NCBI GenBank assembly: GCA_900088475.1
Contig: FLMG01000540.1
Location: 145,934-188,764 of the forward strand
Length of the DNA stretch: 42,831 nucleotides
Reading direction: 5' to 3'
Source of the DNA: Hyphochytrium catenoides
Lineage: Eukaryota > Sar > Hyphochytriomycetes > Hyphochytriales > Hyphochytriaceae
Shown in pieces: positions 1,352-42,831 of this stretch (the stretch's first letter is position 1; every line of letters starts with the position of its first letter). Made by a program: the position numbers and the translations under genes. The notes under the pieces are model-generated. The model was given only the letters and a program-made list of their open reading frames with translations, was not told the DNA's origin and searched no databases.

Positions 1352-3954
1352 TCACTTCTTTCCTGAGTCGCTGTCTCTTCTTCTTCTTCCTGAAAGCTCT
1401 CGTTCCAACGTCTGGAGAAGACGGTCGGCAATCTCAACGCCTCGAGAGGTCGCTTTTCTCTTCTTGCGACTGAGACCTTCCTGGCTCCTTATAAGCAATG
1501 CCTTCAGGCCTGTTACCCGTTCCCGCACGTTGAGCTCCACCGACACTTCTCTATTCATGCTGGCCGCCGCCGTTGGATTTGTTGAGACGCGATTAAGCAT
1601 CTTCAGAAGCCACTCCAGCGCCATGACCTTATGGGAAAGTGACGTAGTGTCTGAATCCTCGGCGAACTCTAGAACTATCGAGACGCCAGCGCTCCATCGA
1701 GCTGCTTCGGTGACAATTTCAGCTATGCCGCCGACTTTGAAGAGCAAGAATACCAAGTTCAGATAGGTAAAGAACTTTCGCTTCCACTCATTGTCCAGCA
1801 GCTCGCGGTACTTTGCCCGCTCCTCCTCCCAGTATACCTTATATTGAGGACATTCGGGACATGGTCCACAGCCGCGATCGAGCTCGGCCACAAAGATTCT
1901 CTTCCGTTCCTCTTTCTTAAGCGAAGGATTGCTCCATAATCGACCCAAATGGCCCTGATGCCTGACACAATCTATAATATACGCAACTTCTGATTGAGTT
2001 TCAACCAACACCACGTGCTCGAATCGTTCTTCATCTAACCATCCCTCCCGCCTAGCGTCCTTCAGCCTGTCTGACGAAGGCGGAACCTGACTCAGCTCTT
2101 TCGCAACCAGCATGGTCATTATCGTTATGGCCACGCCGTCCAAGTTTTCAAAGGCGTGGCGACACACTTCGGAAAGGAGAGGCGTGCGAGATATCAGCTG
2201 CGGAGGCAGCATGCCGGTGAAAAGACAATTATCTGCAAGAAATGTCAATCCGTTCTCCGTAAAGAACTCTTCAGTGGAGGCCCTGGAGATTGGAACGTAA
2301 GGACCCTGCAGGCTCCTGTGGATCGCGGCGAGGACTTGAGAGCTTTCCCAGATTTCCTCCCACACGCTAGCGCCGCTGACCCGTAGCTCGGTCCTCACTA
2401 GAGTTTCCAGGATGCCTACTACTTGCTCATGCTTCATGTGGCAGATAAGCTCTTCAATCACGGTACGTTCCTCTTCGCTCGTGGTGGACGATCCTTCTGA
2501 TGATGTCGCAGGTGAACGCAAGAGTACGTTTAGCACGTCTTCTTGTTCCGCCAGTACTTTGAGAAAACTTATGGCGTGGTTTGCACCGTGTCCAAAGCCT
2601 AACAATAGGCACCTCCTCAGTAGCCGTTCGACGCCAAGCTCACAATATTTGGTGCGGCGTCCTTCAGTATCCTGTATAATACCGAAGCTAATCATACAGC
2701 TGAGGATGTGAAGAGCATGGTTTGCGAGAGCGCTGTCGTGGCCGTCAGTGGCCAGCTTGGTCAGGGTACCGTCCATACCGTAGCTAAGCCCCGCCCGTGA
2801 AGAATTCCCAGTATGATCCAAGGGATACGCACGGAGAACAAACTCCTGCAGCTCATGAAGCAGTTGGCAGTGATCGTTAGGGTGAATTTTTGTCCTGAGG
2901 ATGTCATCGCCATTGCATCGCGGTGCAGGTCTTCCTAATTCCTTCCTCAGCCAACGTGCACAGACAGGAACCTGAGCTACACTAAACTGATGCATTGCAC
3001 TATCCATCAGCTTAAGGCCACAGAGCACCACAGCAGCAATGTTAATCTGAGACTGTTCGATCTCATCGCTTGAGAAGAGACGATCAACAGCTAGAACTAT
3101 TTGTTCTCCCATCTCCCCAACAGAAGCACAAGCTCTCTTCCAGTGTAACAGCGCAGGCAGGAGGACTAGGTTGTTTTGCAACGCGACATCTTTGCACACA
3201 TCGTCCATGGTGCTAGTGGTCAGTCCCATGATCTTACGATAGACCGTGTCCCTAATCACACTTAGAATGCGGTCGTTCTCAAGCCTAAGGAAGTCATAAA
3301 TTCCCAAGCATGTTAGTGTACGAGGCATGGGAGAACCAAGCAGAGTTCCCTCCTGGACGTAGTCAACAACAACTGCTCTTGCCACAATGCTGACTAGCAC
3401 CTGCAAATCCTTTGACAGTACGTCCTTATCGTCGTGAAGCAGGGTGAATATGACTTTGAGGAGGAAAGAGTCTTCTGCATATACGCTTGCTCCGCGGTGG
3501 AAGAGATGGCACCAACGAAGTTGATTTCAAAAGGCTGTTGATGGCTGGTGTGAGAGTGCGCTTCCTTCTGCTCGTTATAGTTTTGTCGGAACGCGTCCAG
3601 AAAGGATGTGGGAGGGAGTGCATTCTGGCGGTCTAAGAAATCCACTCCCTCAAGGCCCCGGCGGCGATAGAGAGGCAGTCTCCGTAGAGCTAGAACCCGA
3701 GACTCTACTTTAAAGTCCGGTATAGTACACTCGAGCTCGCAGCCGATTTTGCCAAATAAGCTCCAAGAGTAGAGATCTTCTAGAGACCACTCCGTAAAGA
3801 TAACACGCCAGTAGTCTAGATTGGCAAAGAGCTGCTCAGAGATGATCCTTCGATGATCATCATCCCCACCAGTGGACTTTACCAGATCCCGATACTGTTC
3901 GTCAATCTCATGCGCCACATGTAGCAGAGAAGCCCTTTGTATCTGATTTGCCAT
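1352..3954 (-). CDS. Unrecognised 854-aa helical (ARM/HEAT-like?) protein
   Basis: The gene starts at the ATG 3954-3952 and stops at 1352. Two long frames, 3513-3954 and 1352-3474, join across a putative 38-nt GT-AG intron (3475-3512); this gives 442 + 2123 nt and 854 aa. Without the intron the junction would be a frameshift, because translation upstream of 3474 is open in the downstream frame. The protein is rich in Leu-containing amphipathic segments (for example DSFLLKVIFTLLHDDKDVL just after the junction), which suggests an alpha-solenoid. It has no signal peptide and no clear membrane span. A CPxCP-type cysteine cluster (CGPCPEC) sits near residue 690. The tail is a basic KKRK/RRRR cluster that could be a nuclear signal. 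I do not recognise the family and infer no function. The gene is divergent from the TRAPPC14-like gene, with tRNA-Thr between them. Confidence 0.75.
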
Positions 3955-9593: not shown

Positions 9594-11115
9594 ATGGAGT
9601 CCAAGAAAGGGTTTGCGAGGGCCAATGCAGACGAAGTGTCTACTCAAACCTTCTTTCTCCTTCTGGTACGTCTACCGCTTATAGTTAGATCAATCTGATG
9701 GCGGCGCCCTCACCACTAAATGTTAGGGCATTGGCCAACTCTTTCCATGGAATGCTTTTGTCACAGCGCATGGGTTCTTTTCTATGCGGCTTAAGGACAC
9801 GTCGTACCAGGATACTTTTGAAAGTTGGTTTGGCATTTCTTTTAACCTCACGGGAGTCCTGGGGCTGGTCTACATCTTGTTGTCAACTTCAAATGTGAGC
9901 TCAGCGCCTAAGCGCATTGTCTTCCCTTTTGGCTGTATGATGGTGTCCTTTGCCATCATTACTGGCCTTGTACATCTGCAAAGTCTGAAAGGAGATCGCT
10001 TCTTCCTCGTCATACTGGGCCTCACCTTCATTAGTGGCATTTGCACCTCAATATTAGGAAGCGCCTTATTTGCTTACTCGAGCCGCTTCCCCCCGCAAAA
10101 CACTGGAGCTGTGATTGCAGGGCAAGCGCTAGCGGGACTGATAGTATCAGCAGCCAACGTTCTGACAGTGGTTCTCGAGCCCAGCGAGCAGCAAGTGGTA
10201 GACTCTAATACCAGTGAGAGGAGGGAAGAGGGCGACGCCCTTCTGAGATCTGCATCCATATACTTCTCTATTGCGACAGTGGTGCTCTTCACCTGTATTG
10301 TTAGCTTCCTCTACCTTCACAAGCACACATCTTCAGCAACTTCATATCAAGCAGTCTCGGCTAGCGCAGCACTGCACCTTCTGGAGGAGGAGGAGAATGA
10401 AGCACTACGAAAGGAGCTTGCTCTTCTTCAAGAACCAGAGGAGAGTCTCTTGGAGCACAGGCAGAGTAGTTGCGAGGAAATTTATCAAAACAGTTCTCAG
10501 CAGGCTGGCATTTGGGAGCTACTCTGCAAGATGCGCTGGTCTGCGCTCTCTCTCTTCATGACGTTTTTCGTTACTCTCTGCATCTTCCCTTCTGTGACTT
10601 CTGCCATTAGACCGACCTGTCGACTCAAATCGACTCATTTGTCCAGTGTCGCTAGCAGACTATGCTCCGACCTCTTTACTCCCATAACCTTTGTCCTCTT
10701 CAACCTTGGAGACTATCTAGGGAGGGTGACTGGCAGCTGGAAGCAAGTCCTAAGTTTACGTGGCATTTTTCTTGGATCTCTCCTACGGTTCTCCTTCCTA
10801 ATCGTCTTCTTATTCTGCAACTATAAGCGGCCTCCTCCGACTACGGAGCTGTTGGACTATAGTTTTGGAAGCAGCCATGGCTCCAACCGCCTTGCCTCAC
10901 TCTCGCGTGATTCCTACGCCATGCTCTCCATCCTCTTCCTGGGATTTACAGGAGGCTACCTAGCCAATTTAGTCTTCATAGACGCATCCACACGCTCGAA
11001 GCCTCAGGATCATGACCGTACGGGATCGATTTTGGTTTTGGCCCTGAATGTAGGACTTTTTTTTGGTTCTATGGCCTCACTTGGCCTAAAGAGCCTACTA
11101 TATAGCTCGGCGTAG
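9594..11115 (+). CDS. Equilibrative nucleoside transporter (SLC29/ENT), 486 aa
   Basis: Two exons, 9594-9665 and 9727-11115, join in phase across a 61-nt intron. Exon 1 encodes the start MESKKGFARANADEV and the beginning of the first membrane segment; the join yields LLLGIGQLFPWNAFVTAHGF, with the PWN signature (residues 31-33) that ENT carriers share. About ten or eleven hydrophobic segments follow. A long hydrophilic, Glu-rich loop lies between about residues 215 and 265, where ENTs have their large cytoplasmic loop after TM6. The end of the protein has the conserved FLGFTGGYLANLVF segment. ENTs move nucleosides and nucleobases down their gradient across plasma, lysosomal or plastid membranes. 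Length matches the family (about 450-500 aa). Substrate and membrane cannot be told from sequence. Confidence 0.92.
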
Positions 11116-12038
11116 CTAAGGCACCAACGAGCCACAAGAGGTATATTGACTTGTGTTGACTTAGGGGGAGCGCGAATGCCCGCCCCTGTCTGCTTCTTGT
11201 GCTAACTCCACTTTACGATAACGGCGGCAGATGAAGTGGCGGAAGGGAGGGAAAGAAGGGTGATTGATCCTTTAAGCCTAACCACGAGTCATGACGTTAT
11301 GTTGTGCCCCAGGGGCTACAGTTGGCATTCTATATACTTGGGACAGACATAAGTCTTTGCTTCTCTTTGACGGCGTAGGAGCACCTCCGATAAAACTACT
11401 TACACCTCTGGCGAGTACTTTAGCAACTGCATCTTCCCAGCAAGGAGAATGTTACGCAGCTAGCTTGATTGGAGTACGTTCCTCGCTTCAGCTCCGTCGT
11501 TGATCCTTGGCCACAGCTAGCGTCATTGTGGAAAAAGCTCCATACATATTTTGACCTTGCTCAGCTCCTTCGTTGATCCTTGGCCACAGCTAGCGTAATT
11601 GTGCAGAAGGCTCCATACATACTTTGACCTTGCCCGACAGGACTTGAGCATCAGAGGTTAGATGTTAGATGAAGAAGCTCTGTAATAATCTGTTGAAGTT
11701 CACGTGGAGATAGGATCTTTCTGAAGATTTGGGTTCTCAATAGAGTTGAAAGTTGCACACAGGACCATATCGTTTGAATCTTTCAAAATTCCTGTAGTCG
11801 CATTTTAAAGCGCAAACCCAAGCTTTTGAAACCAATGTAAGCTATCGATGAAATGTTTCCATCATGGCGGTTCTTACTTTTTTGGGGTACAAGCACTTGT
11901 ACAGTAGGAATTCTTACCAAACCAAGCTGAGAGCCTCTAGATCCGAAAGCTCCAACAAGCTCAGAGTCCTTTTCTGCTGAGTGAAGGAGAGAACGTGAAA
12001 GGCTGGAGGCCTTCAAGCGCTTCGGGAGGTAGTCATTC
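11116..12038. other. Intergenic between ENT and the ankyrin gene
   Basis: This 923-bp stretch carries no gene that I can support. Its one clear structure is the 73-bp tandem duplication at 11489-11634. Short frames on both strands lack family features. Confidence 0.5.
11489..11634. repeat. Two-copy 73-bp tandem duplication
   Basis: Unit 1 is 11489-11561 and unit 2 is 11562-11634. They are directly adjacent and equal in length, with about 8 single-base differences. Each contains the GATCCTTGGCCACAGCTAGC core and ends CATAC-A-ACT/TTTTGACCTTGC. The few substitutions and no indels suggest a fairly recent duplication. It lies downstream of ENT and upstream of the ankyrin gene. Confidence 0.9.
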
Positions 12039-12872
12039 ATGCTTATAATGATGAGAGCTGTCCTTCAAAGAAGTCTTTGTTGCCTTACACCGTCAGCAGC
12101 TCCAAAGAGGACACCTCACGCGAGTCAAGTAGTGTTCCTTACCTGGCGAGACACTGCCATTCGTCAGCGTCGACAAGGACGATGGATAACCTATGAGGGC
12201 TGTGGCCACCACTCGGCAAGGCAGAATCGTTTGAGGATTACATCCATCAGCCTTCTTTCGTGTACTCAAGCCAAAGGAACTGGAAATATCTTCAAGACCA
12301 ACTATCAACATAACCATCAATGCCGTGCGATATCTTCTTCGCCGGAGAGAAAAGGCAAGGAGCTTCTCTCACTGATAAAGCACAGCGATGATGCATCAGT
12401 CATAGCTGCTGAATCCTTACTTGCCGCTGGCGATATTGTTTTGGCAACTGTCGACCAGTTCGGTTCCACGGCCCTCATCCTTGCCGCTGGAAAGGGAGAG
12501 CTAGATCTTTGTCACAAGCTTTTGGAGTTGATGAGATCGAAAGCTGGTGATGGTCTGGACATTAATGCCCAGAACTATTTTGGTTCAACCGCCTTACACT
12601 GCGCGTCTGCCAACGGCCATGTGGAAGTCGTAAGGCTCCTTCTTTCGCATAAAGCAGATGTCCATACAGCATCGAGATGTGGGTCAACAGCTCTTACGAA
12701 AGCTGCTGCTTACGGTCGGATAGGAGTGTGTCGGGTCCTTCTAGAGCATCAAGCTGATGTTAATCGACAGAATAAGTTAGGGAAGTCAGCGCTCGATCTG
12801 GCAGCTGATGATCCGCAGCTATTAGAGCTGCTACGGGAGCACCTTAATAAGGAGGGAAGAGGGGCTCTTTGA
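12039..12872 (+). CDS. Ankyrin-repeat protein with a mitochondrion-like presequence (277 aa)
   Basis: A single-exon gene, unlike most neighbours. ATGs at 12039, 12048 and 12051 are all in frame; the first is used here. Residues 1-105 are rich in Arg, Ser and His and have very few acidic residues, ending in CRAISSSPERKG, which resembles a mitochondrial presequence with an Arg-proximal processing site. From about residue 140 there are four ankyrin repeats, seen as GSTALILAAGKGELDLC, GSTALHCASANGHVEVVRLL, GSTALTKAAAYGRIGVCRVL and a last degenerate one ending KSALDLAADDPQLLELL. Ankyrin repeats bind other proteins; no catalytic domain is present. The location is inferred only from composition; a plastid signal would normally show a signal-peptide start in algae with secondary plastids, which is absent. 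Confidence 0.8.
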   Translation: MLIMMRAVLQRSLCCLTPSAAPKRTPHASQVVFLTWRDTAIRQRRQGRWITYEGCGHHSARQNRLRITSISLLSCTQAKGTGNIFKTNYQHNHQCRAISSSPERKGKELLSLIKHSDDASVIAAESLLAAGDIVLATVDQFGSTALILAAGKGELDLCHKLLELMRSKAGDGLDINAQNYFGSTALHCASANGHVEVVRLLLSHKADVHTASRCGSTALTKAAAYGRIGVCRVLLEHQADVNRQNKLGKSALDLAADDPQLLELLREHLNKEGRGAL

Positions 12873-23366: not shown

Positions 23367-25388
23367 TCAAACAGTGGTGATAGTAACATAGTCAGCAGAC
23401 GAAGTTGAGGAGCTCCACATCCAACCGAAAAGCCAACCCAGCATTCCAGGCTCCTCAGCTCCCGTATGCAACCGCACGATTTGTTCATCCTCTTGATTGC
23501 TGTCGTGATGCGATTCGCTAGGGGAACGTCGCGGTCGTCGGAACGACATTCTCAGCGGCCGGTGACCACCGCGAAGCATCATCATGATATGGTGGAAAAA
23601 GGCGTCGCTGACATCATTGCCGTCCACCATCACTAGCTCATCATTTGGCTGCAGTCCACTGTAAATGGCTTGGGAGTTGGGGAGGACCCGCTTGACTGTG
23701 GCCCCTCCGCGGCCACTGTTTGAGATGAAATGAATCCCCAACGGCCCAGCTTTGGTGAACATGATGCTGAAATCAGCAGCAATGCTCTGGCTTGTACTGT
23801 TCAGCTCGAGTCCTTCGTCAACCAGCGGTCGATCCATAGAGCTCATGGCCGGGGTATCACCTTCACCGCTACCCTGTTGAACATCTTGAGGGCTTGAGGC
23901 AGCACCCGAAGCACTTATTCGATCTTGCCCAGACGCAGATTGCCCATCTGGAGTCTTAACATCTTCTTGTGTCACTGCAACGGTGGTCCCATTTGCAGAA
24001 GCGACCGTCGTTAACCGAGGATCATCCCAAGTCCTGCGCCGAGGTCTAGCTTAGTTGATATGCCGAAGGATTCAACCGATAGGAATTACTCACGTTGTTT
24101 GTGTCCGGTGGTCTACAAAGAACACATCCCCACTTTCAGTTTTGCGTATCTCCCAGCCCGGGGGTAAGGGAAGTTCCTGCTAAAGAAGGAGTTTAAGGTG
24201 AGGCTCCTTCATCATAGGGAATAACTCTATACTCACCAGTGCAGTGGGGGCACCGGGAACAGCAGGCACCAAGCTTTCTTCTTGTACTGCTTGGGTCTCT
24301 CTTTGGGGATTTGCTGTACTTGACCAGTCTTCATGGTGCTCGGTATGAGAAGTGCCAGTCAAGCTAACAGTGCGAGCCGGAGCTCCACTTTCAGAGGTAT
24401 TTGGGGCTGTAGTCTATATTTCGTAGCTCTTTATAAAAAGAGGAAAAACAAAGGATTACAGAGAGTCTTTACTTCTTCATACCTGCCGAACCTTGTCAGA
24501 TGACGCCGTAGGAGGAGTCATAATGCTCTGTTGATGGATTCTGGGATCCTCATCCGTACTGCAAACAATCGAAGATCACACTCNNNNNNNNNNNNNNNNN
24601 NNNNNNNNNNNNNNNNNNNNNNNNNNNNNNNNNNNNTATACACAACAGGAATGGCTTCAGGGTTGGATAGCTCCCAGTCTTCTCCCAGAGGGGTCGTCTT
24701 AAAATAATCCATCAAAAGTCCAATCTTCTCCCATCGTGGATCCTTCCATGATGTTTGTCTATCAATGTGGTTGAGATAAAATAGCTTCCCCGTGTCAGGG
24801 TCTCTTGCAGCCTATGTAGAATAGCTCCCTGAGGTGCCTTTTTTTTTTTGGAATACCGCGGCATCATACCTCCCAATCCGACGGTAAAGGAATAAATAGT
24901 CGTAGTGCAGTAAGAGCCAAGGCCCGCTCGCTGCAGACTAGATGCAGCTTGCGTAACTCCTCTTCAGCTACTTGTAGCTGCCCCTGAAACTCTTTGTGTG
25001 CATTCGCCTCCCGGACCTTCAATCTTGAATCTCTTGGAATACCCAGCTCCTCCTTCAATGTCAGAAGGTCCTTGGTTGCGTCCTCGCGTTGCTGGAAACA
25101 ACGGGTCAGGTTCGCTGTGTCGTGCTACTCTACCGTTGGTTGTCCTTACCTGGATCGCGTCTTCCAGGGTGGCGCGAAGTGCAGAGAGAATCATTTTTTG
25201 TTCTTCAACTTGCTTCCTTAGCCTTTGGACTTCATCGACAGTGGGCTGGGACCTCCAATTAAGAGATGCCTCACATAGGGGCAGTCCCTTCAACAGATAC
25301 CTACCTTGACGTCATCTTGCTTGTCACTTGACGAGGACCGGACGTCCAACCTCTTGCCACCGTTCTTGACTGGATTGTGCTGGGCCAT
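23367..25388 (-). CDS. Coiled-coil, three-WW and PDZ scaffold protein (gap inside)
   Basis: Minus-strand exons: 25305-25388, 25150-25245, 24870-25091, 24811 into the N-gap, 24483-24558, 24237-24413, 24094-24179, 23367-24033. Outside the gap all phases match. The start is MAQHNPVKNGGKRLDVRSSS. Residues 29-125 are a coiled coil (VQRLRKQVEEQKMILSALRA). WW1 begins at LPSDWE and includes KLFYLNHIDRQTSWKDPRW. WW2 begins PLGEDWEL, is cut by the gap and resumes TDEDPR, so its second Trp is missing. WW3 is LPPGWEIRKTESGDVFFVDH followed by TTTWDDPR. The C-terminal PDZ carries the carboxylate-binding loop PLGIHF and NDELVMVDGNDV. WW domains bind Pro-rich ligands and PDZ domains bind C-termini, so this is a likely scaffold. 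I know no family with exactly this order. The 197-aa gene upstream may belong to it. Confidence 0.85.
24584..24636. other. Assembly gap (53 N)
   Basis: A run of 53 undetermined bases inside the WW/PDZ gene. It removes the end of the exon for WW2 and its donor site. The number of N need not equal the true missing length. Confidence 0.99.
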
Positions 25389-31457: not shown

Positions 31458-34400
31458 ATGGATGAGCTGGTGGACATCTTCCGAAGCGATCGGCTCAAGT
31501 TAGGTCGCTTGAGAAGACAAAGAAAAGATGCTGATGGGGACAATTTTTCTGAACCTCAGTAAGGGCTTGAGATCTCTACACACTTACGCTCATCACTGCT
31601 AACAGTCTGCTTTCAGGAGCTCTCCAGCGTCGGTTGGGGCGAGGAGCATTCGGGATGACGTGTCAGAAGAGGCCCGATCGGATAGATCAAACTCTCTTGG
31701 TAACTCCTTCAAGGAGGCTGCGGCGGTAGCAGGTGAGAATGGAAGGAGTCTGTTTATGACTGAGGTTGCAGTACTAAGACTTCCTCGGCTTAGGTTTGCT
31801 GAGTGGGGGCGGCTTTGCCATCCAAACCTTCAGAGAAATGACGCAGCAGCCGCCAGTGACAACCACCAGTCTCACCCTGCCGCCTTCCAACGTCAACGCA
31901 AGATCTTGGTCCATCACGCCATCTTCCGCTACTTCAGTGTATGTTGAGAAAGGAGCCGGGAAGGTAGTCTACTCCGGTTGGCTGCGTAAGCAGGGCAACT
32001 TTTGGTACGCAAGCATATCAATAACGGACCCCACGACCATAATACTGCACTTTTAACCAGCTTTTGAACCCATCAGGACGGGATGGAAGAGAAGATATTT
32101 CGTCCTGCGAGTCCAGAGTGATGATGAGAGTCCAACGCAATACGGCCTTCTCCAGTTCTATAATAACAACCGCTTCGGCAAACTCAAGGGAGAGATTTCA
32201 CTATGTGAAGGGACAATTGCCGTTAGATTCTTGGATATACAGAAGACAGGCAAGCCTTATTGCTTTGAAATCGTCAAGGGCTTCTACCAGGTGAGATCTC
32301 TTTCTTGTGCAATCTCCCTTGTTGTTCCTTTCATGACTCTAAAGCAACGAGCGCATAGTTTATCTGCCAGGCAAGTGACGAAAGAGAATGCAAGGCTTGG
32401 GTGAGTCACCTGCTTCAACTGGTTCCATCCAACACTGCCACGATGGCTGGCACTCCTCGGGTAACGAGGATGGACTCGACGCTCGGAAAAACGGGCACCG
32501 TCGTCCGAGAGTCGATGTATGGCGTTTTCAATAGGCGACTGACGGTGGAGGTGAAAAGTATATTGGTGGGTGTATATGCTACTCAGGTAGACGCGCCTGG
32601 CCTTCATATAACCAGTCCATTATCCCTATTCTTCTGCAGAGTGATCCCCGTAGCAAGGAACACATGTCCTGTCAGACTTATATGAAAAAGTTTGATCACC
32701 GGTCTCCGTCTGCGCTGACTGAACTCGCTAAGGCTATGGGACGACTGAGGGATCGAATGCTGAGCAGTCACGGCGAAGCCCTCTGTAAATATGTTGACGA
32801 ACCGCGAAAGGAAGAAGAGCAAAAAATGACCATAGTATCCAAGGCTGTGACGAGAGGCATAGAGGAAACGCTTTTCATACCATTGCATGACGGAATATAT
32901 TTGAACCTCAAGCGAAGAGTCTCTGAAGAGCAGGAGGTGAGGTTCTTAGTAGCCCGATCTGTGAATGGTGGAAAAGAGTATAAGAGGCTCCTTTGCCTTG
33001 TTACTTTTGAAGGGTGGGTGGGGTTGTCTTGAGTCTTGACCTTCGCTCAGTGCCGACATTTTCCTGACCAGTCGATTCGTTCTCTTGCTTACTAGGCCGA
33101 GATACTCAGAAAAATGCAGTATTTGCGCAGCAAGAACCAGCAATTCTATGATATTCCTAGCTCCCAAATCTCTCCTTCTAACTGGAAGTCAGTCTGCCGT
33201 ATTATGGATACGATTGGCACTCATTCGCTGCCTTCCGACAAACTCGACTGCCTTATACTAGCTGTCCGAGAAATTCATGAGCTCTATGATTTGGAAAAGA
33301 GGCAGTCGGTAGGGACCAAGGGGCTAGATGCGGACGATTTGCTCCCGATATGTAAGATACCGCCGAGAGCCCTAGCTCATCTTCTTTCAAGTCTCCCTAC
33401 TTCCTCCTCTGGAAAGAAAGCATATCCTCTTCTCACTGGTGTACTAACTGAGAGTCTCCTCATCTCCTAGCTCTACTATTCTGTTCTGTCTTTATAGAGC
33501 GTGTGACCCCTTTCCGTGTCACCCCCTTCCCTATGCATAACAACGCATCAGGAAGGTATACTAACAATGAGCTTATATCCTCTTCCATCCCCTTGTGTGG
33601 TCCATCCTCTTCAACCACAGTCACCTTTGTAGTGGTAAACAGCAACCTGGAGAAGCTTCTTACTCTTCGTGAGCTTCTCGTCGCCTTCTCGGATCCATGG
33701 GAGGCTTCAAGCGACAAGGAAATTGGTGTGGATGTTAGCCTCCTGACCTCCTCTATTGACTACATTACGTCCATCAACATACCGGGCATAATGGAGGATA
33801 TGCTCAAAGATCAGGTGGGGCTTCCATTTGTTTTCGGCTTCCAACAGACTCCAGAACGCTCCCCACAGCCAGAGTAGAGGATTGCAAATACATGGTTCTA
33901 TTTCAACCTTGGTTCTGCCATACCTCGAATTGCGTTGCTATCTACTCAATGGAATCCTACTCTTTCCTCTTCACTTCTCCTTGCTTTTCTTGTATTCGCT
34001 GTTGTCGTTACCAGGTATTGGTTAGCGTGGAAGGAGACTGGCGCAGCGGGCTGGAGCTGGAAAAGGACCGATTGTACGGTCTAGGAGCAGTGGTATGTCC
34101 CATTGTGATCCCCCTGATATTGAATTGTCCTTATCTAGGGGGAAACAATTTGCATAATTCTTCTGTCGGCCAACCTGTGGCGGGACGCATGACTACTATT
34201 CGTGCTTACAACCTAGTAGCGCATTCTGCCCGTGAAGCCCTCCTCTGCGGACAAATTCTTATTTCTATCTTTGCTCTATATGCAGTTGCTATCTTCTCAT
34301 CACATGAACCTCTTGCAGGTGAAATCCACCGCTTCCGGCCACAGCCGGTGGGGTGACAACGTCGCTCATTTGAAGATTGGCAAAGGCTCTGTATTGATGA

Positions 34401-37400
34401 CAGTGAACGGCGAGTCAGTGGCCCTTTTCCCCTACGAGGAATGCATAACGATATTAGATAACGCCATTCCACCCAGGAGGTAACAGAAGTTGTTCTCAGC
34501 TATTATTCCACGGAGTGTTAGTTCCATCGTCGGCTAGCTTCCGAGTCTCCACTGTGCCAGACTCACTTCTTGTTCTCAGGCTTGGATTCCTTCCACCGCA
34601 GTTGTACTATAGAATGATGGCCATGAAGAAATATTATTGGGAAAACGCGTTGTGGCAGGTAGGCTGACCCTTAGTATCCGTACGCTGGTATTGTCTCTTA
34701 CCTGTCTGCTTCTCTTTATTTCTTCTTTTGCAGGCATGCAAGCGCAGTAGCTTTCAAGGAGTGAAGCGGTTGATCCAGAATAAAGTGAACGTGAACTGCA
34801 GGAGACAGAACCTTAGCACTGCACTTCACATTGCAGTCCACAGAGTTAACCTTGAGATTGTTAAGCTGCTTATAGAGGCGGGTGCCAACGTCAATGCTGT
34901 GGGACCCATGGATAGGACACCACTACATATGGTGAGTAACATGCGCAAAAACGGCGAAGGTGGTGTTGACGCATTGCCAAGAGAAGAATGCCGCAAGTAT
35001 GCTGTGAGGGAGGCAGTGGGTGCTTCGACTCTTGGGGGGCGTAGCATTGCACGACTGCTGCAATTAGCTCTCCATGATCATCACTAGGCCAAGCGCAAGC
35101 ATGAGGGACGCCTAGCATCGCTTCTGACAACTCTGTCGCTTTCAATTGATGCTCTGTTTAGTTGGGAGTCCCCTTGGGGGAAGAAGAAGCAATCTCAAAT
35201 GAGGTTGACGATAATTATAATGGTGAAGTGACACAGATTGTCGATGCCCTAAAAATCGCCGGCGGGGATCTGGACGCTCGGGACATTTTTGGCAACACTC
35301 CCGCCATGCTATGTGCTCGCAGAGGAGCATCTCAGGCGCTTTCCGCTCTTTTGCGATGTGGTGCAAATCTTGAGATTAGAAACTGGCAGTTCGGGTGGGT
35401 AACGCTACCTAAGTGGAGGCTCTATTGATTGTCTTCTTGGAATCGACATATAGCGGCTGTAGTTTCCAAAAATTATTGCAGATATCTCCACCCCGTATGC
35501 CAATGTCTAGATCTGTTCCTCGGTTTCTTTAAGCAAGCGACCATGTTTGGTATCTTCCTGCCCCTTCATGTGTTTGTCTTCCTGGCTAACATTGCTGTTA
35601 ATCACGGTCCAGGTACACTGCTCTTGCCTGGGCTGCGCAGGAAGGAGCCAATGAGTGTGTACAGGTTCTGCTGCAAGCCGGATCCGAAGTGGATTGTCGC
35701 AGTTTGGATGGCGAAACACCGCTTCATATAGCAGCTTCAATAGGCTCAGCAGTCTGCTGTGACACTCTGCTCCAACAGGGCGCTCATGTAAATGCCCAGA
35801 CAGGTATGCTAAGCCATCCAACCCATAAGATAGGTAGAGCGGATGGGGTAAAGAACAGGAGCAAATGGTGGGGAAGTCTAGACTATGGGCTTCTTGGACC
35901 CGTTCTCCGCTTTTTTTGGTCGTTAGTATCCGTGCTAGTAGGTAGCTTTCTCGCCTCGTTGCTTACTTATCCTTTCCTTCCTCTGGCTTTCTTAATATAT
36001 TGTCACGGTGCAGTGCACGGGGTTTCTCCATTAATAATGGCAGCCTCTCGAGGCCAGGTGCGCCGAATTGGCCCCAAAGCACCTGAAGTAGCAGACGACA
36101 TTCAGCTGGAGCGCACAATAGAGTTATTGCTGCATGCTGGGGCTAACCCGGCGATCGGTAAGAGATGTGAGAATCTATATGAGGCAGCTATAGCAAAGGG
36201 GGAACAGATTCAGTACTATTGATTTTTGCTATATGTGGGTGTCGTTAGCTCTTTGGAACAAAGTTCCAAATCACCTTTCCCCCTAGAAGGCTGGCGTGGC
36301 CGCTGGCCATTTGGGAATCAACCTCCCTGCCTGGGACTGCAGTTCTTTCGAATTCTCAGCGTAGTGTGCTTATATTTACAACCTTCCTTATTTTGCTTTA
36401 TGCTTAGTGGGTAAGAACTTTGGGTCTGCGCTTCACTACGCTATGGTCCATGCAAACGAAGGAGTCGTAAGAAGACTTCTCACCGAAGCACCTCAGATTA
36501 CAGGCGTCAAGGACATCAAGGGTAAGCAAGCAGGACGTGGAACTAGAAGGAGGGGCTTGCCGGTCATTATATATTAGATAGCTGCTCTTGGCGGTAATAA
36601 GGGGTATATCTGGCAAAAAAAGGACTTGTGATGATGGACTTTTAGGGCGACTTGGTCGGTGTCATTAAAGGTGGAAAGAAAAAGAGATTTTTTTTTGTAC
36701 CCTAAACCTCTCAGCTGATATGCGCTATTTTTTCTCCGCAGGCTGCACGCCCTTGGACTTAGTTACTCAGAAACTTCTGGAGTACAGGGCATCTAAGCAC
36801 CAACAGGTGTCCGAAGGAGTGATCAGAGGCACCCTTCCTTCGGCCTCGCCTTCTTCCCGCTCCGCCTCTTCCGAAACTGCTCCATCTCCAACCTCCCACC
36901 TCTTGCGTTGGGCTTCAAATTACCAATTGCTTGCTGGGTCTCGAAATGAAGACTTCAGCACGTTCAACACCCAGCTGCAGGTTATGTGGAAAGACCTGCG
37001 CTGCACCCTGACTTCAGCAGGAGCTCTCCATATCTTGGTAGGATGGGACTGACAGAACTTCTCAAGTCTATATTCTAGCCACTCTCTTTCTCTCCTAATC
37101 TGGAGAACTCTTCCTTCACTCCTTCGTACCTGACGTGACTTAAGAGCTAGATGCTCCTGTCCTCCATAGTCTGCTCTTTTCTTTAGCCCTGCGTCTGCCC
37201 TACAAATAGAGCTCATGTATCACTTCCTCCCGCCCACATTCTCGTAGTCTGGCTCGTTGGAGGCAAGCGTGGCTCATCTCATGTCACCCCAGCACTTTAC
37301 CGGACATGATATGTCGGATATTATTTATAGCATCACGGAGATATGTGACGTGATGTTGTTCCTGAGATACATCAAGGAGGCGTATCAAAGAGCGTTCCCA

Positions 37401-40400
37401 GACTTCATGATGAATTGGATGGCTAGTGTCACAAGTAATGAAGGTGGGCTTGATTTGGTCGACTGTGACGTCCTGTCCATGTTGGGTCCCTCCCTGGCTT
37501 CTCAGTTTCTCCTTTGATGAGAAGGTCAAGTCCTGTCATGTGTATCATTCTTTTACTGGTAGTGCCCAGTGGCTTAGGAATGTCTCTCTCTTCCTTCATT
37601 GGTCTTTCGCGCTGGAGCTGGGCCGACCTGCCCCTGAATTGACTCTCTCTCTCTTCCTACCTTTCGCGTCCTCTCTTCGCATTAGAGGAGGCCAACAAGA
37701 TTGGGGTCGACACGGAAAGTAAAACTTATCTGGAGGACTATGGAGACATTGCCGCAGAAGCCTTTCTCCGCCGCCATGGTATACCCTGTATCGTCCTGAC
37801 CACGAAAGAGGTGAGATACAGTTCGTATTATGCAGGCAAAAGGTGGTGTAAAGCAAGGGAAGGAGAGTCTTAACGGGGGTTTAGTAAGACTTAGTGGTGA
37901 AAGACCAGATGGATGTTGCAGAGTCAATCGACTTATGTTAAGTACAGAGATCATCGTGCAACTGTGCAAATGCCTCTTTCCTATTCTTTGATTGCAGCGA
38001 GTAACTGCAGTGCGACGGATTGCGACATTCTCTCTGGAGCTTCTCGTCGTAGCCCATGAAGAGTTATTGAGGAGCCAGAGTCAATGCTGTGCAGCCTTCC
38101 TGGACTTAGCCAACGACATCATACTTGCAGGTAGTGAGAACACGAGCAAGCATGCCGCCCCTAAAATCCCTGATGGTATTAGAGAAAAAACCAGAGGCTA
38201 GCAAGGGGAACAGGGGAAGTAGTCGAACTGTTCTGGCGCCGAAACATACTGGTAGCTCCGGTAAAACCAAGTAGCGAATCCGTTGCTCATCTCCCGAACT
38301 TTCTCCTTTCTTTTTGGCCCCCGTTGTAGCGGAGCGCGACGGTGATGTCTCTCTTTCCGGCCTCCTCGCAAGTTTCAAGCTACCGCGTTTTGTGGCTTCA
38401 TTCCTTGTGCAAGAGTTGCCCGAAGAGGCGCTGCCGGAGGGTTACGAAGAGCTAGGAGGTACGCTGATGCCGACTGGATCACAATCAGCTAGTTGTTAGG
38501 ACATTAGCGCTAGCGCATTCCATTCAATGCTCCGCTGATCACTCTGCAGCTCTAGGCCAGCAATTTTTTGCGCCAAACGAGGATATCATTTTGGAAACTC
38601 CTTCCCCTATGGACAGAGGACGAGAGAAGCCAAGCGAAAGTCCATTGCATAAGCAGTATCAGGAGGCTCTGCAGGTCGATGCCATCATTGAAGGTTAGTT
38701 TCTAGCTCTCCTCGCATTGTCCGGCTCTTTTGAATGCAATGCTCATGTCCACGTACTTTGCTGTTCTATAGGAGGCCCTTCGCAACTTCACGAATTAGGC
38801 CGAGGAAGTGCCAGAAGGGCCTGGGGCGGGCCGGAGGGCCTTCTGGGCGAGGAAGGCAGGCAGAAGTCGAATAGCGTTACTTCCATGTCGTCAGATCGGT
38901 CCCATGGAAGTTCTAAGAGGAGGTGTACATCTGCTTTCATACTCTCCGTGACTTCCTACTTACCTTGCTCTAATCTCTTATATAAATCGCTAACAATTCT
39001 TTCGTTTCTAGTGAGAGGCTGTTAAGTGTACCTCCTCAGCGAGTGGCGAAACAGATTACATTATTTGCTCATTATTTATATCAGAAAATTCCAGGTGAGG
39101 TCGCTTTTCTTCTGTTCTTTTGCTTTTCCTCTGAATGATCAACTGCTTCTATGTCTTATGTGGCGTCTGTTCGCGTCCTCGTATGTTGGCAATGGAATCA
39201 GGCTATCCAGCGCCACTCTTCCCCCCTGGCGCTTGACCATTCTGACTGTCCCTCTTCAGTGTCCGAGCTGCTTTGCAAGAAAGGTATTCGGCCTGCCTTC
39301 TCCGAGATGAAGCAATTCTTTAACCATGTAAGTGCTGTCCATATGTTAGTTTCCCTATGTCTCGCGGGACCTAACAGAAACAACAGCTGACTATCTGGGT
39401 CATGAGTGAGATCTTGCGGGAGAGAGAAGTGCAACTTAGGACAAGGGCCATCGAGTACTTTATCACGGTAAGAGAACAGTAGAAAGAGTAAAAACATCAG
39501 CATTCCGGTCTCGTCACGTCACTAGGTGACAAGGAAAGGGATGTAGAGTTTAGGTTGCGGAAGGGCTGAAGGTGGATACCATAGAGAAGAGTGAGAGAAA
39601 GGCCGGTGTAGTGTTTCAGTCCGTTTACCCTTGCCTGCAGAAGTCTGTTCTCCTGATAAGCTCTGTAGCGTTAACTCTGTGTACTCCCTACTGATGACCT
39701 CTTCTTTCGTCCTGTGCTGATTACTTATTGCACTCCATCAATGTGTCACTCATGGGTTTCCACAGGTGGCTGCTAAGTGCCGCTCCCCTCTTCACAATTT
39801 TGATGGCCTGGTGGCAATTATGAACGCTTTGCAAAGTACTGCCATCAACCGACTTAAGATGTCATGGGCTAGACTGGGACAGAAGGAAAGGGATCTCTGG
39901 AATGAGCTCAAGCAGCAAGTGGCTGCAGGTGGAAGGTAAGGGAGCGAGTCTCTGGGTTCTTGTAGGGAAGGCAAGTGTCGAGAGAGGAGTTTGTAGATGC
40001 TAAGAGGACTTTGTAAGGACTTTGTACTAGTGCGAAGCACAGGGGATGGACAAAGCCGACCAGGAGACTAATGTAACTGTCTCTTTGCATCTCCCAGACG
40101 CCTATTCCACGTTATCCGAGACACATCTCCACCCTGTGTGCCGTACGTAGGGATATACCTGCAACACCTGACTGGTTACAGAGAAGTGCCCACCTTGCTA
40201 GAAGGAGGACAGAAGATTAACTTCAAGAAGGTAAAAGACATTTTGCTATGAAGATGACGCTGCGAGTGGATCTCTAAGGACATCTAGTGAATCCCGACTT
40301 TAATGCTACGCTTCGTTCTCAAGCTTGGCTAAATGCTCTTTAATATCTCACCTCTTCCTTATGGGGGATCCACAGGTCACCTGGCCTCCTTTGTCTTCCT

Positions 40401-40653
40401 AGAGTCTGCTTTGCCTTCGTCACTCACGGGCATTCCCAACCTCGCGGTCTCCCTGGCCAAATACTTCCCTTTACTTCTCTAGATTCGCTCTGTAGGTGAG
40501 GTACTTCGCTCCTTCACCAAGCACCAGCGGATACCGTACATCATCCCTGTTGACAGCGCCATCCTTTGCCTGGTGTTTCGTACACCAAGGTTCAAGACGG
40601 AAGAAGAGGCATACGACCGTTCTCTTCTCCTGGAGCCGCGCTTACCCTCTTAA
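31458..40653 (+). CDS. PH-VPS9-PDZ-ankyrin-REM-RasGEF fusion protein (1582 aa, 29 exons)
   Basis: Exons: 31458-31558, 31617-31732, 31794-32004, 32077-32290, 32359-32586, 32640-32936, 33096-33351, 33621-33814, 34015-34092, 34319-34479, 34580-34658, 34734-34931, 35162-35394, 35613-35803, 36014-36157, 36408-36521, 36742-37037, 37248-37434, 37686-37810, 37998-38130, 38330-38458, 38550-38693, 38772-38922, 39012-39099, 39202-39327, 39387-39467, 39766-39935, 40098-40230, 40483-40653 (4749 nt, frame closed). PH about 128-237 (VYSGWLRKQGNFW, AWVSHLL); VPS9 about 390-535 (GLDADDLLPIFTFVVVNSNL); PDZ-like 545-625 (SVLMTVNGESVALFPYEECI); ankyrin repeats 646-955; REM from about 1038 (GSLEASVAHLMSP); CDC25 domain about 1335-1579 (FFNHLTIWVMSEIL, PPCVPYVGIYLQHLTGYRE, INFKK, KHQRIPY, LEPR). 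Expected substrates are a Rab5-type and a Ras-type GTPase. Exon 17 runs from the last ankyrin repeat into the linker before REM, supporting one gene. The exon 24 donor is the least certain. Confidence 0.85.
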
Positions 40654-41919: not shown

Positions 41920-42606
41920 ATGAGGGCGCAGTTTGGGGCTCTTGCGCTGCTCTGCTTCCTGCTTTATTCCGTCTCGATTGTCGAAGGAGGACGGAGCAGG
42001 ACTGCATCCAGACGGCAGTTTCAGGTTGCGCTGCCTGCTGTGTGAGCGCTATTGCCTGTTCCTCTAACTCACAGCCATCTTCTTCCATCATCTTTCAGGC
42101 ACTTAGAGCTGGAACTCGCCTTGAAAAGGCTGTTAGTGAGGCGGAGGGTCCTGTCCAAGGCACTGGAGTCTGTGGCGCGGCTCTGAAGGATGAAACCGGA
42201 TACATTCCGATCGCTGGTGAGCGTCACTCGACCCCATGAGTGCCCTACCCTCGATCTCTAGTCGGTGCCTAGCCTCGATCTCTTGTCTACGTCCCAGCTT
42301 TTCTGCCTCATATATGTAGAGTGACGTCCCCGTCCTGGTGCCCTACTCACAAGATTCATCCCTCGCGGTCTTATCTCTCTTTGAAGGAGGCGCGAGGAAG
42401 TATTTCTACTGGTTCTTTGAATCGGAGTCAGCTTCTGCTTCGGACCCTCTCGTGCTCTGGCTCTCAGGCGGACCAGGGTGCAGCAGCCTCGTTGGTCTCT
42501 TTTATGAGAACGGTCCTTGCCTGCTGAGGAACACCGCCGAGCCAGTGCCCAACCCTTGGTCCTGGCACCGCAAAGCCAACCTTCTCTATGTCGACCAGCC
42601 AGCCGG
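41920..42606 (+). CDS. Serine carboxypeptidase (S10), 5' part, runs off the window
   Basis: Three exons are visible: 41920-42024, 42099-42216, 42387-42606; all joins are in phase. The ATG at 41920 opens a signal peptide (MRAQFGALALLCFLLYSVSI, cleavage near residue 22), so the enzyme enters the secretory route to vacuole/lysosome or outside. After a basic, likely pro-peptide segment the catalytic domain begins: KYFYWFFESES, PLVLWLSGGPGCSS (oxyanion-hole motif of S10), FYENGP, PNPWSWHRKANLLYVDQPAG. The last exon ends at a GTAAGT donor (42607), and the remaining 225 bp are intron. The nucleophile motif GESYxG, and the Asp and His of the triad, lie beyond the window, so activity cannot be judged. 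The S10 family assignment is firm. Confidence 0.93.
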
Positions 42607-42831
42607 GTAAGTGGTTCGCTTTTGAGGCTAGAGTGGTAGCAAACGAAGAAAGACAAGAGGTGGAAGAAGAAGCCGAATAGGTCTAACAGAAGAACTCTGA
42701 AGCCCCAGGAACATTTCTCTATGGACATTTCTCCGCTGTCCCCTTGATTGGTTTCTGTTTATCTTTCAGTCTATGGCTAACTCTAATCCCTTCCTCTCCT
42801 CTCTACCTCTCTCTTCCCCCTCCCGCCCCCC

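Follow-up and report, generated by a model that had tools for sequence, protein, structure and literature searches.

GAPVD1 combines a RasGAP domain with a VPS9 domain, the REM domain is the usual partner of CDC25, and RasGRF1 has a PH domain and is not known to carry a VPS9, ankyrin or PDZ domain. Among proteins with a VPS9 domain, RIN1-3 link Ras to Rab5 within a single chain, according to passages of PMC8963869, and Alsin (ALS2) carries a Rho-type GEF next to VPS9, that is, a second GEF in a VPS9 protein (passages of PMC6032885 and PMC4159981). A survey of Vps9 proteins over eukaryotes reports, in passages of PMC6032885, a stramenopile-specific clade, Vps9-ankyrin proteins in Ectocarpus and Aureococcus, and the addition of PH and RasGAP domains; passages of the same paper give CHPLCxCxxC as the retromer-binding motif of holozoan VARP. 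The terms "RasGEF" and "Ras GEF" are absent from its main text, and its Table S1, a list of Vps9 proteins, may include orthologues of the gene described here.

No protein with both VPS9 and RasGEF is described in the titles and abstract openings of the open-licence papers listed. The two domains are likewise not placed in one protein in the passages of PMC6767298, PMC12475976, PMC8923023 and PMC6397043, nor in those of PMC12652811, PMC4159981, PMC8305018 and PMC9576445, in which both "VPS9" and "CDC25" occur. An initial reading made from the sequence alone had held that no VPS9 protein with a CDC25 Ras-GEF domain is known. This agrees with the literature found, in which none is described. The pair is not unique to this genome: public databases contain proteins of the same domain order from Saprolegnia diclina and Albugo laibachii. 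The family is apparently undescribed.

Gene model and relatives

The gene lies in a window of Hyphochytrium catenoides DNA (the whole stretch analysed, 42,831 nucleotides), and its features are collected in Table 1. The gene model was built by picking splice sites between anchor peptides, and the rebuilt model gives a single open frame over its 29 exons in which the sole stop is terminal. All 28 introns are GT-AG and 58–298 bp long, and an in-frame stop lies seven codons upstream of the ATG. The number of exons and the single frame thus bear out the sequence-only reading; its length of 1582 residues does not match the 1557 obtained here, and may come from other splice choices. The chosen splice pair is the best-scoring one at 22 of the 28 joints (one of these a tie) and the second-best at five, and at joint 14 it was taken from outside the four top pairs; pairs other than the top one were picked for domain continuity. 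Some joints thus leave doubt about the splice sites, and small segments of the gene model may be wrong.

Table 1. Predicted features of the gene, with positions in the window.
Feature	Position	Strand	Basis
Gene, 29 exons	31458..40653	+	Predicted product of 1557 aa, PH-VPS9-(PDZ-like)-ankyrin-(REM-like)-CDC25; one frame, colinear relatives
PH domain, residues 130-235, exons 3-5	31964..32421	+	PF00169, 41.2 bits (cut-off 25.1)
Pre-VPS9 region, about residues 275-411	32539..33182	+	Colinear with relatives; place of the Rabex-5 helical bundle
VPS9 domain, residues 412-519, exons 7-8	33183..33775	+	PF02204, 37.7 bits (cut-off 27)
PDZ-like conserved region, about residues 530-620	33806..34604	+	Conserved with P0068 and P0069; PDZ sub-threshold in P0068
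Ankyrin-repeat array, about residues 634-945	34644..36782	+	Ank_2, 129.9 bits, four stretches
Exon 17	36742..37037	+	One open exon holding the final residues of the ankyrin array and the linker that leads to the REM-like region
REM-like region, about residues 1031-1225, tentative	37248..38551	+	Resemblance by eye in alignments
CDC25 (RasGEF) domain with C-terminal extension, residues 1334-1557	39043..40650	+	PF00617, 130.1 bits (cut-off 23.1)

Other open frames in the window include a 462-aa frame at 9727-11115 (+) encoding a nucleoside transporter (PF01733, 123.8 bits), a 279-aa frame with ankyrin repeats at 12033-12872 (+), and a 227-aa frame with a PDZ domain of 30.0 bits at 23367-24050 (-). 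A 724-aa open frame at 1352-3526 (-) has no Pfam match at E up to 0.01, and a piece of a serine carboxypeptidase (PF00450, 109.3 bits) is found downstream of the gene at 42320-42610 (+).

With residues 125-650 as the query, three proteins were retrieved: P0068, the S. diclina hypothetical protein SDRG_10107 (1472 aa); P0070, an A. laibachii Nc14 protein of 1577 aa whose listed name starts "Rasspecific guanine nucleotidereleasing factor"; and P0069, a protein of 921 aa that cannot show a CDC25 domain because its sequence ends inside the REM-like region. The Pfam order PH, VPS9, ankyrin, CDC25 is identical in P0068 and P0070 (VPS9 of P0068 being just under the cut-off), and in the alignment the predicted protein is colinear with both from PH to the C-terminus, with an overall identity of 35% to P0068 and 27% to P0070. 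Identity to P0068 in the linkers is 22 and 26%, and the linkers before CDC25 share 11-26% with P0068 and P0070. The sequence-only reading had suggested looking for the same domain order in related genomes, and these two species supply it. Since the arrangement is also present in two water-mould proteins, the gene looks like a real conserved family, and we infer that the fusion would be older than the split of the oomycete and Hyphochytrium lineages.

When the parts were compared separately by BLAST against 82 fetched proteins and the pieces of a second RasGEF gene, family members were the best matches for the PH, VPS9, PDZ-like and CDC25 parts; for the linker and REM part, P0068 came first in the same 82-protein set with a non-significant E of 0.31. 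This set was gathered with the predicted protein as query and contains few other VPS9 proteins, so that it is a weak test of orthology for VPS9. The three protein searches were confined to the roughly 8000 candidates with the most words in common. The whole-protein search was swamped by ankyrin matches, and the whole-protein and alignment searches together brought up P0069 and P0072 besides ankyrin proteins and ordinary RasGEFs, and missed P0068 and P0070; absence from their results consequently means little, and the range of the family given here is a lower bound. NCBIfam matches in P0068 and P0070 are all far under their cut-offs and lie within the ankyrin region. P0072 (926 aa) has VPS9 and ankyrin, with RasGEF absent from its listed domains, and possibly belongs to a separate VPS9-ankyrin branch.

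Domains and catalytic positions

The order claimed earlier was PH, VPS9, PDZ-like, ankyrin, REM, CDC25. Pfam recovers PH, VPS9, ankyrin and CDC25 in that order, whereas the PDZ-like and REM parts stay below the thresholds of the sequence tests: in the Pfam search that had been suggested, PH, PF02204, ankyrin and PF00617 exceed their cut-offs, and PF00595 and PF00618 have no match. RA, SH2 and RasGAP have no Pfam match in the predicted protein at E up to 1, and the CHPLCxCxxC motif is absent from it. The PH domain is about 49-50% identical to that of P0068, and the ankyrin array 38%. The PDZ-like region shares about 38-40% identity with P0068 and 38-39% with P0069. PF00595 is without a match in the protein, whether searched whole or in pieces; the colinear spot of P0068 scores 16.2 bits for PDZ, under the cut-off of 23.2, and the order of strands and helices in the P0069 structure model is compatible with PDZ at low confidence.

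The Pfam CDC25 domain proper comprises residues 1334-1503 and extends to 40488. Its best match among solved structures is PDB 2ije (119.8 bits, E 1.2e-33), which is listed as a guanine nucleotide-releasing protein and which we take to be RasGRF1; a profile search against PDB gives the CDC25 part 158.5 bits. The stretches FNHLTIW, NFDGLVAIMNAL, RLKMSW, PPCVPYVGIYL and INFKK align to RasGRF1, Cdc25 and SOS1 chains and correspond to conserved motifs of the CDC25 catalytic domain, which judged from the alignment look intact. CDC25 is 40% identical to that of P0068. In a tree of ten CDC25 rows, the predicted protein groups with P0068 and P0070 (support 0.946), and these three have in common a one-residue insert (SPL before NFDG/NYDG) that is absent in the other seven rows.

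The REM-like region is 24% identical to P0068, and PF00618 (RasGEF_N) has no match in the predicted protein, P0068, P0069 or P0070, whole or in pieces. It was also compared by hhalign with six reference RasGEF_N segments, with eight column shuffles and one reversal as controls: the region reached a P of 0.16, equalled by three of the eight shuffles, and P0068 alone reached 0.039, equalled by one of eight. The matches shown by the PDB profile search cover the C-terminal CDC25 part and not the REM-like region.

The pre-VPS9 region is 35% identical to P0068, and its helices appear in the structure model of P0069, which has low overall confidence. The VPS9 domain itself is 36% identical to P0068. 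PF02204 scores 33.9 bits in P0069, 31.2 in P0070 and 25.1 in P0068, just under the cut-off, and it is present in the database's precomputed domain list for P0068. In Rabex-5, Asp313 and Tyr354 are two key residues, and a change of the equivalent Asp or Tyr in another VPS9-type GEF severely reduces exchange (passages of PMC4379102); changes at Asp313, Pro317, Tyr354 or Thr357 impair Rabex-5 (passages of PMC8963869). The register of the alignment was set by aligning VPS9 locus L001 of the same genome to Rabex-5, and then L001, L002, L004 and L005 to the family. The positions of Asp313 and Pro317 correspond to Asp462 and Pro466 of the predicted protein. The aspartate-finger position reads D, D, D and E in the predicted protein, P0068, P0069 and P0070 (Glu in P0070), and the Pro317 position is P in all four. 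At the Tyr354 position the same four proteins have V, S, T and R, and in the sequence alignment no Tyr is found within five columns of this position in any of them. Tyr is kept there in all six of the other VPS9 loci listed in the genome: L001, L002 and L004 read GYFL and L005 reads EYYL, and by eye L003 reads GYYVT and L006 GYLFT, in the following exon. The Tyr354 position is assigned by sequence alignment; the P0069 model, built from three rows, is of poor quality across VPS9 and the PDZ-like region (block-mean pLDDT 32-43 over residues 311-420 in VPS9). Read in this register, the VPS9 module is predicted to be without the key catalytic Tyr of the Rabex-5 type. The earlier designation as a Rab5-type GEF stands for the VPS9 domain as such (Table 1) and is doubtful for the enzyme, given that none of the four members has Tyr at this position; another residue could stand in for it and keep VPS9 active as a GEF.

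Both candidate GTPase types, Ras and Rab5-type, are encoded in the same genome. A Ras fragment with DILDTAGQEEY and a C-terminal CVLL lies at the end of a contig (C41; L040, G000:C41), its first exon being outside the fragment, and Rab5-type genes, in our own family naming, are found on C107 and C1087. The introns of the L040 Ras gene contain CT-rich repeats, and the contig stops, within a GA repeat, short of the first exon. RasGEF matches listed genome-wide fall at two loci, the present gene and C898, and RasGAP matches also at two among those listed; exon-wise searches of this kind undercount, as the VPS9 search of the genome missed the intron-split VPS9 of the present gene. The second RasGEF gene (L039, G000:C898:13637-13804) has RasGEF exons with upstream peptides that are REM-like by eye, and no VPS9 match on contig C898 is among those listed genome-wide. 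L001 (G000:C202:14872-15165) encodes PX and a C-terminal VPS9 in one open frame and resembles the ochrophyte PDZ-PX-Vps9 proteins in a passage of PMC6032885 (section 2.7). For light-harvesting proteins (PF00504) there is no match.

Proposed role and alternative readings

The reading favoured here over a symmetrical dual GEF is that of a Ras activator anchored by its PH domain, in which VPS9 would mainly read, or weakly activate, Rab5-family GTPases; we give it about an even chance of being right. The PH domain, perhaps together with the PDZ-like part, would place the protein on a membrane, at which CDC25 would load Ras with GTP. The VPS9 module would bind a Rab5-family GTPase, and the loss of the catalytic Tyr is proposed to make it weak or altered in exchange. 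Ras activation would thereby occur on membranes that carry Rab5. A partner might bind to the ankyrin array, or the array might keep the two ends apart. The location, the activities and the direction of coupling are what we infer, and the target of CDC25 could be a Rap-like or other Ras-like GTPase. It is also possible, if somewhat short of an even chance, that the family is an ancient one shared with oomycetes, in which a Ras activator is fused to a VPS9 that reads Rab5-family GTPases without normal catalysis, the endosomal Rab state determining the site at which Ras is activated.

A pair of adjacent genes taken for one, or a false join in the assembly, would be consistent with the variable linker between ankyrin and REM-like region among relatives, and the oomycete relatives P0068 and P0070 are themselves database entries. 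The ankyrin/REM-like joint is, however, spanned by exon 17, which is open from the ankyrin end into the linker at exactly the coordinates first proposed, and introns 16 and 17 contain four in-frame stops each. The gene is also free of N, the sole N run of the window being 24584-24636, and GC3 is alike on the two sides of codon 1000 (0.547 upstream, 0.563 downstream). The recurrence of the PH-VPS9-ankyrin-CDC25 order in the named S. diclina and A. laibachii proteins makes two genes very unlikely, and means that the gene is not private to this genome. The bridge of exon 17 and the two oomycete proteins uphold the earlier claim of one gene rather than two adjacent ones; with no N run in the gene, the artefact was rejected as scarcely credible.

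The remaining alternatives differ in which domain does the work. A true dual GEF, in which VPS9 and CDC25 are both catalytic and Rab5-family GTPases and Ras are activated together at one membrane, would restore the dual-GEF model of the sequence-only reading should VPS9 prove active after all. VPS9 scores over the Pfam cut-off in three of the four members, its conservation is roughly on a par with that of most of the remaining parts, the aspartate-finger position is acidic and the Pro317 position invariant, and genes for both GTPase types are at hand. The loss of Tyr in all four members, set against its retention at the six other listed loci, and the Glu of P0070 in place of Asp argue the other way, and we consider the dual GEF unlikely, if less so than a third reading, an ankyrin-scaffolded trafficking protein with VPS9 as the working part and a CDC25 that merely binds Ras. 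Poor conservation of the linkers before CDC25, and a REM below detection, would fit the latter; but CDC25 keeps the RasGRF1 motifs and its identity to P0068, and the missing catalytic residue is in VPS9, not in CDC25, which leaves a trafficking protein improbable.

If the Ras activator with a Rab5-reading VPS9 module is the true form, its direction is opposite to that of the RIN proteins, where the Ras state feeds Rab5 activation. The family may connect traffic inside the cell with signalling for growth, and would give a concrete handle on endosome-Ras coupling beyond animals and fungi.

Comparison with described proteins

The closest relatives, P0068 and P0070, are like the present protein in domain order, in colinearity, in the insert within CDC25 and in the absence of Tyr from VPS9, and differ from it in the linkers and the REM-like region; no study characterising either of them was found. 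RasGRF1 contributes the solved structure (2ije) closest to the present CDC25 domain. A Ras activator beside VPS9 in a conserved chain would be a third arrangement, after Ras binding in the RIN proteins and RasGAP in GAPVD1. GAPVD1, like the present protein, unites VPS9 with a regulator of Ras, but the Ras regulator of the present protein is an activator domain, and no RasGAP match is found. RIN1-3 bind Ras via RA and carry SH2, whereas the present protein has no RA or SH2 match and its CDC25 would make Ras-GTP. Alsin differs in having a Dbl-type second GEF and a C-terminal VPS9. VARP (ANKRD27), Esi0135_0039 and Aureococcus 70964 combine VPS9 with ankyrin, as the present protein does, and in passages of PMC6032885 CDC25 is not reported for them.
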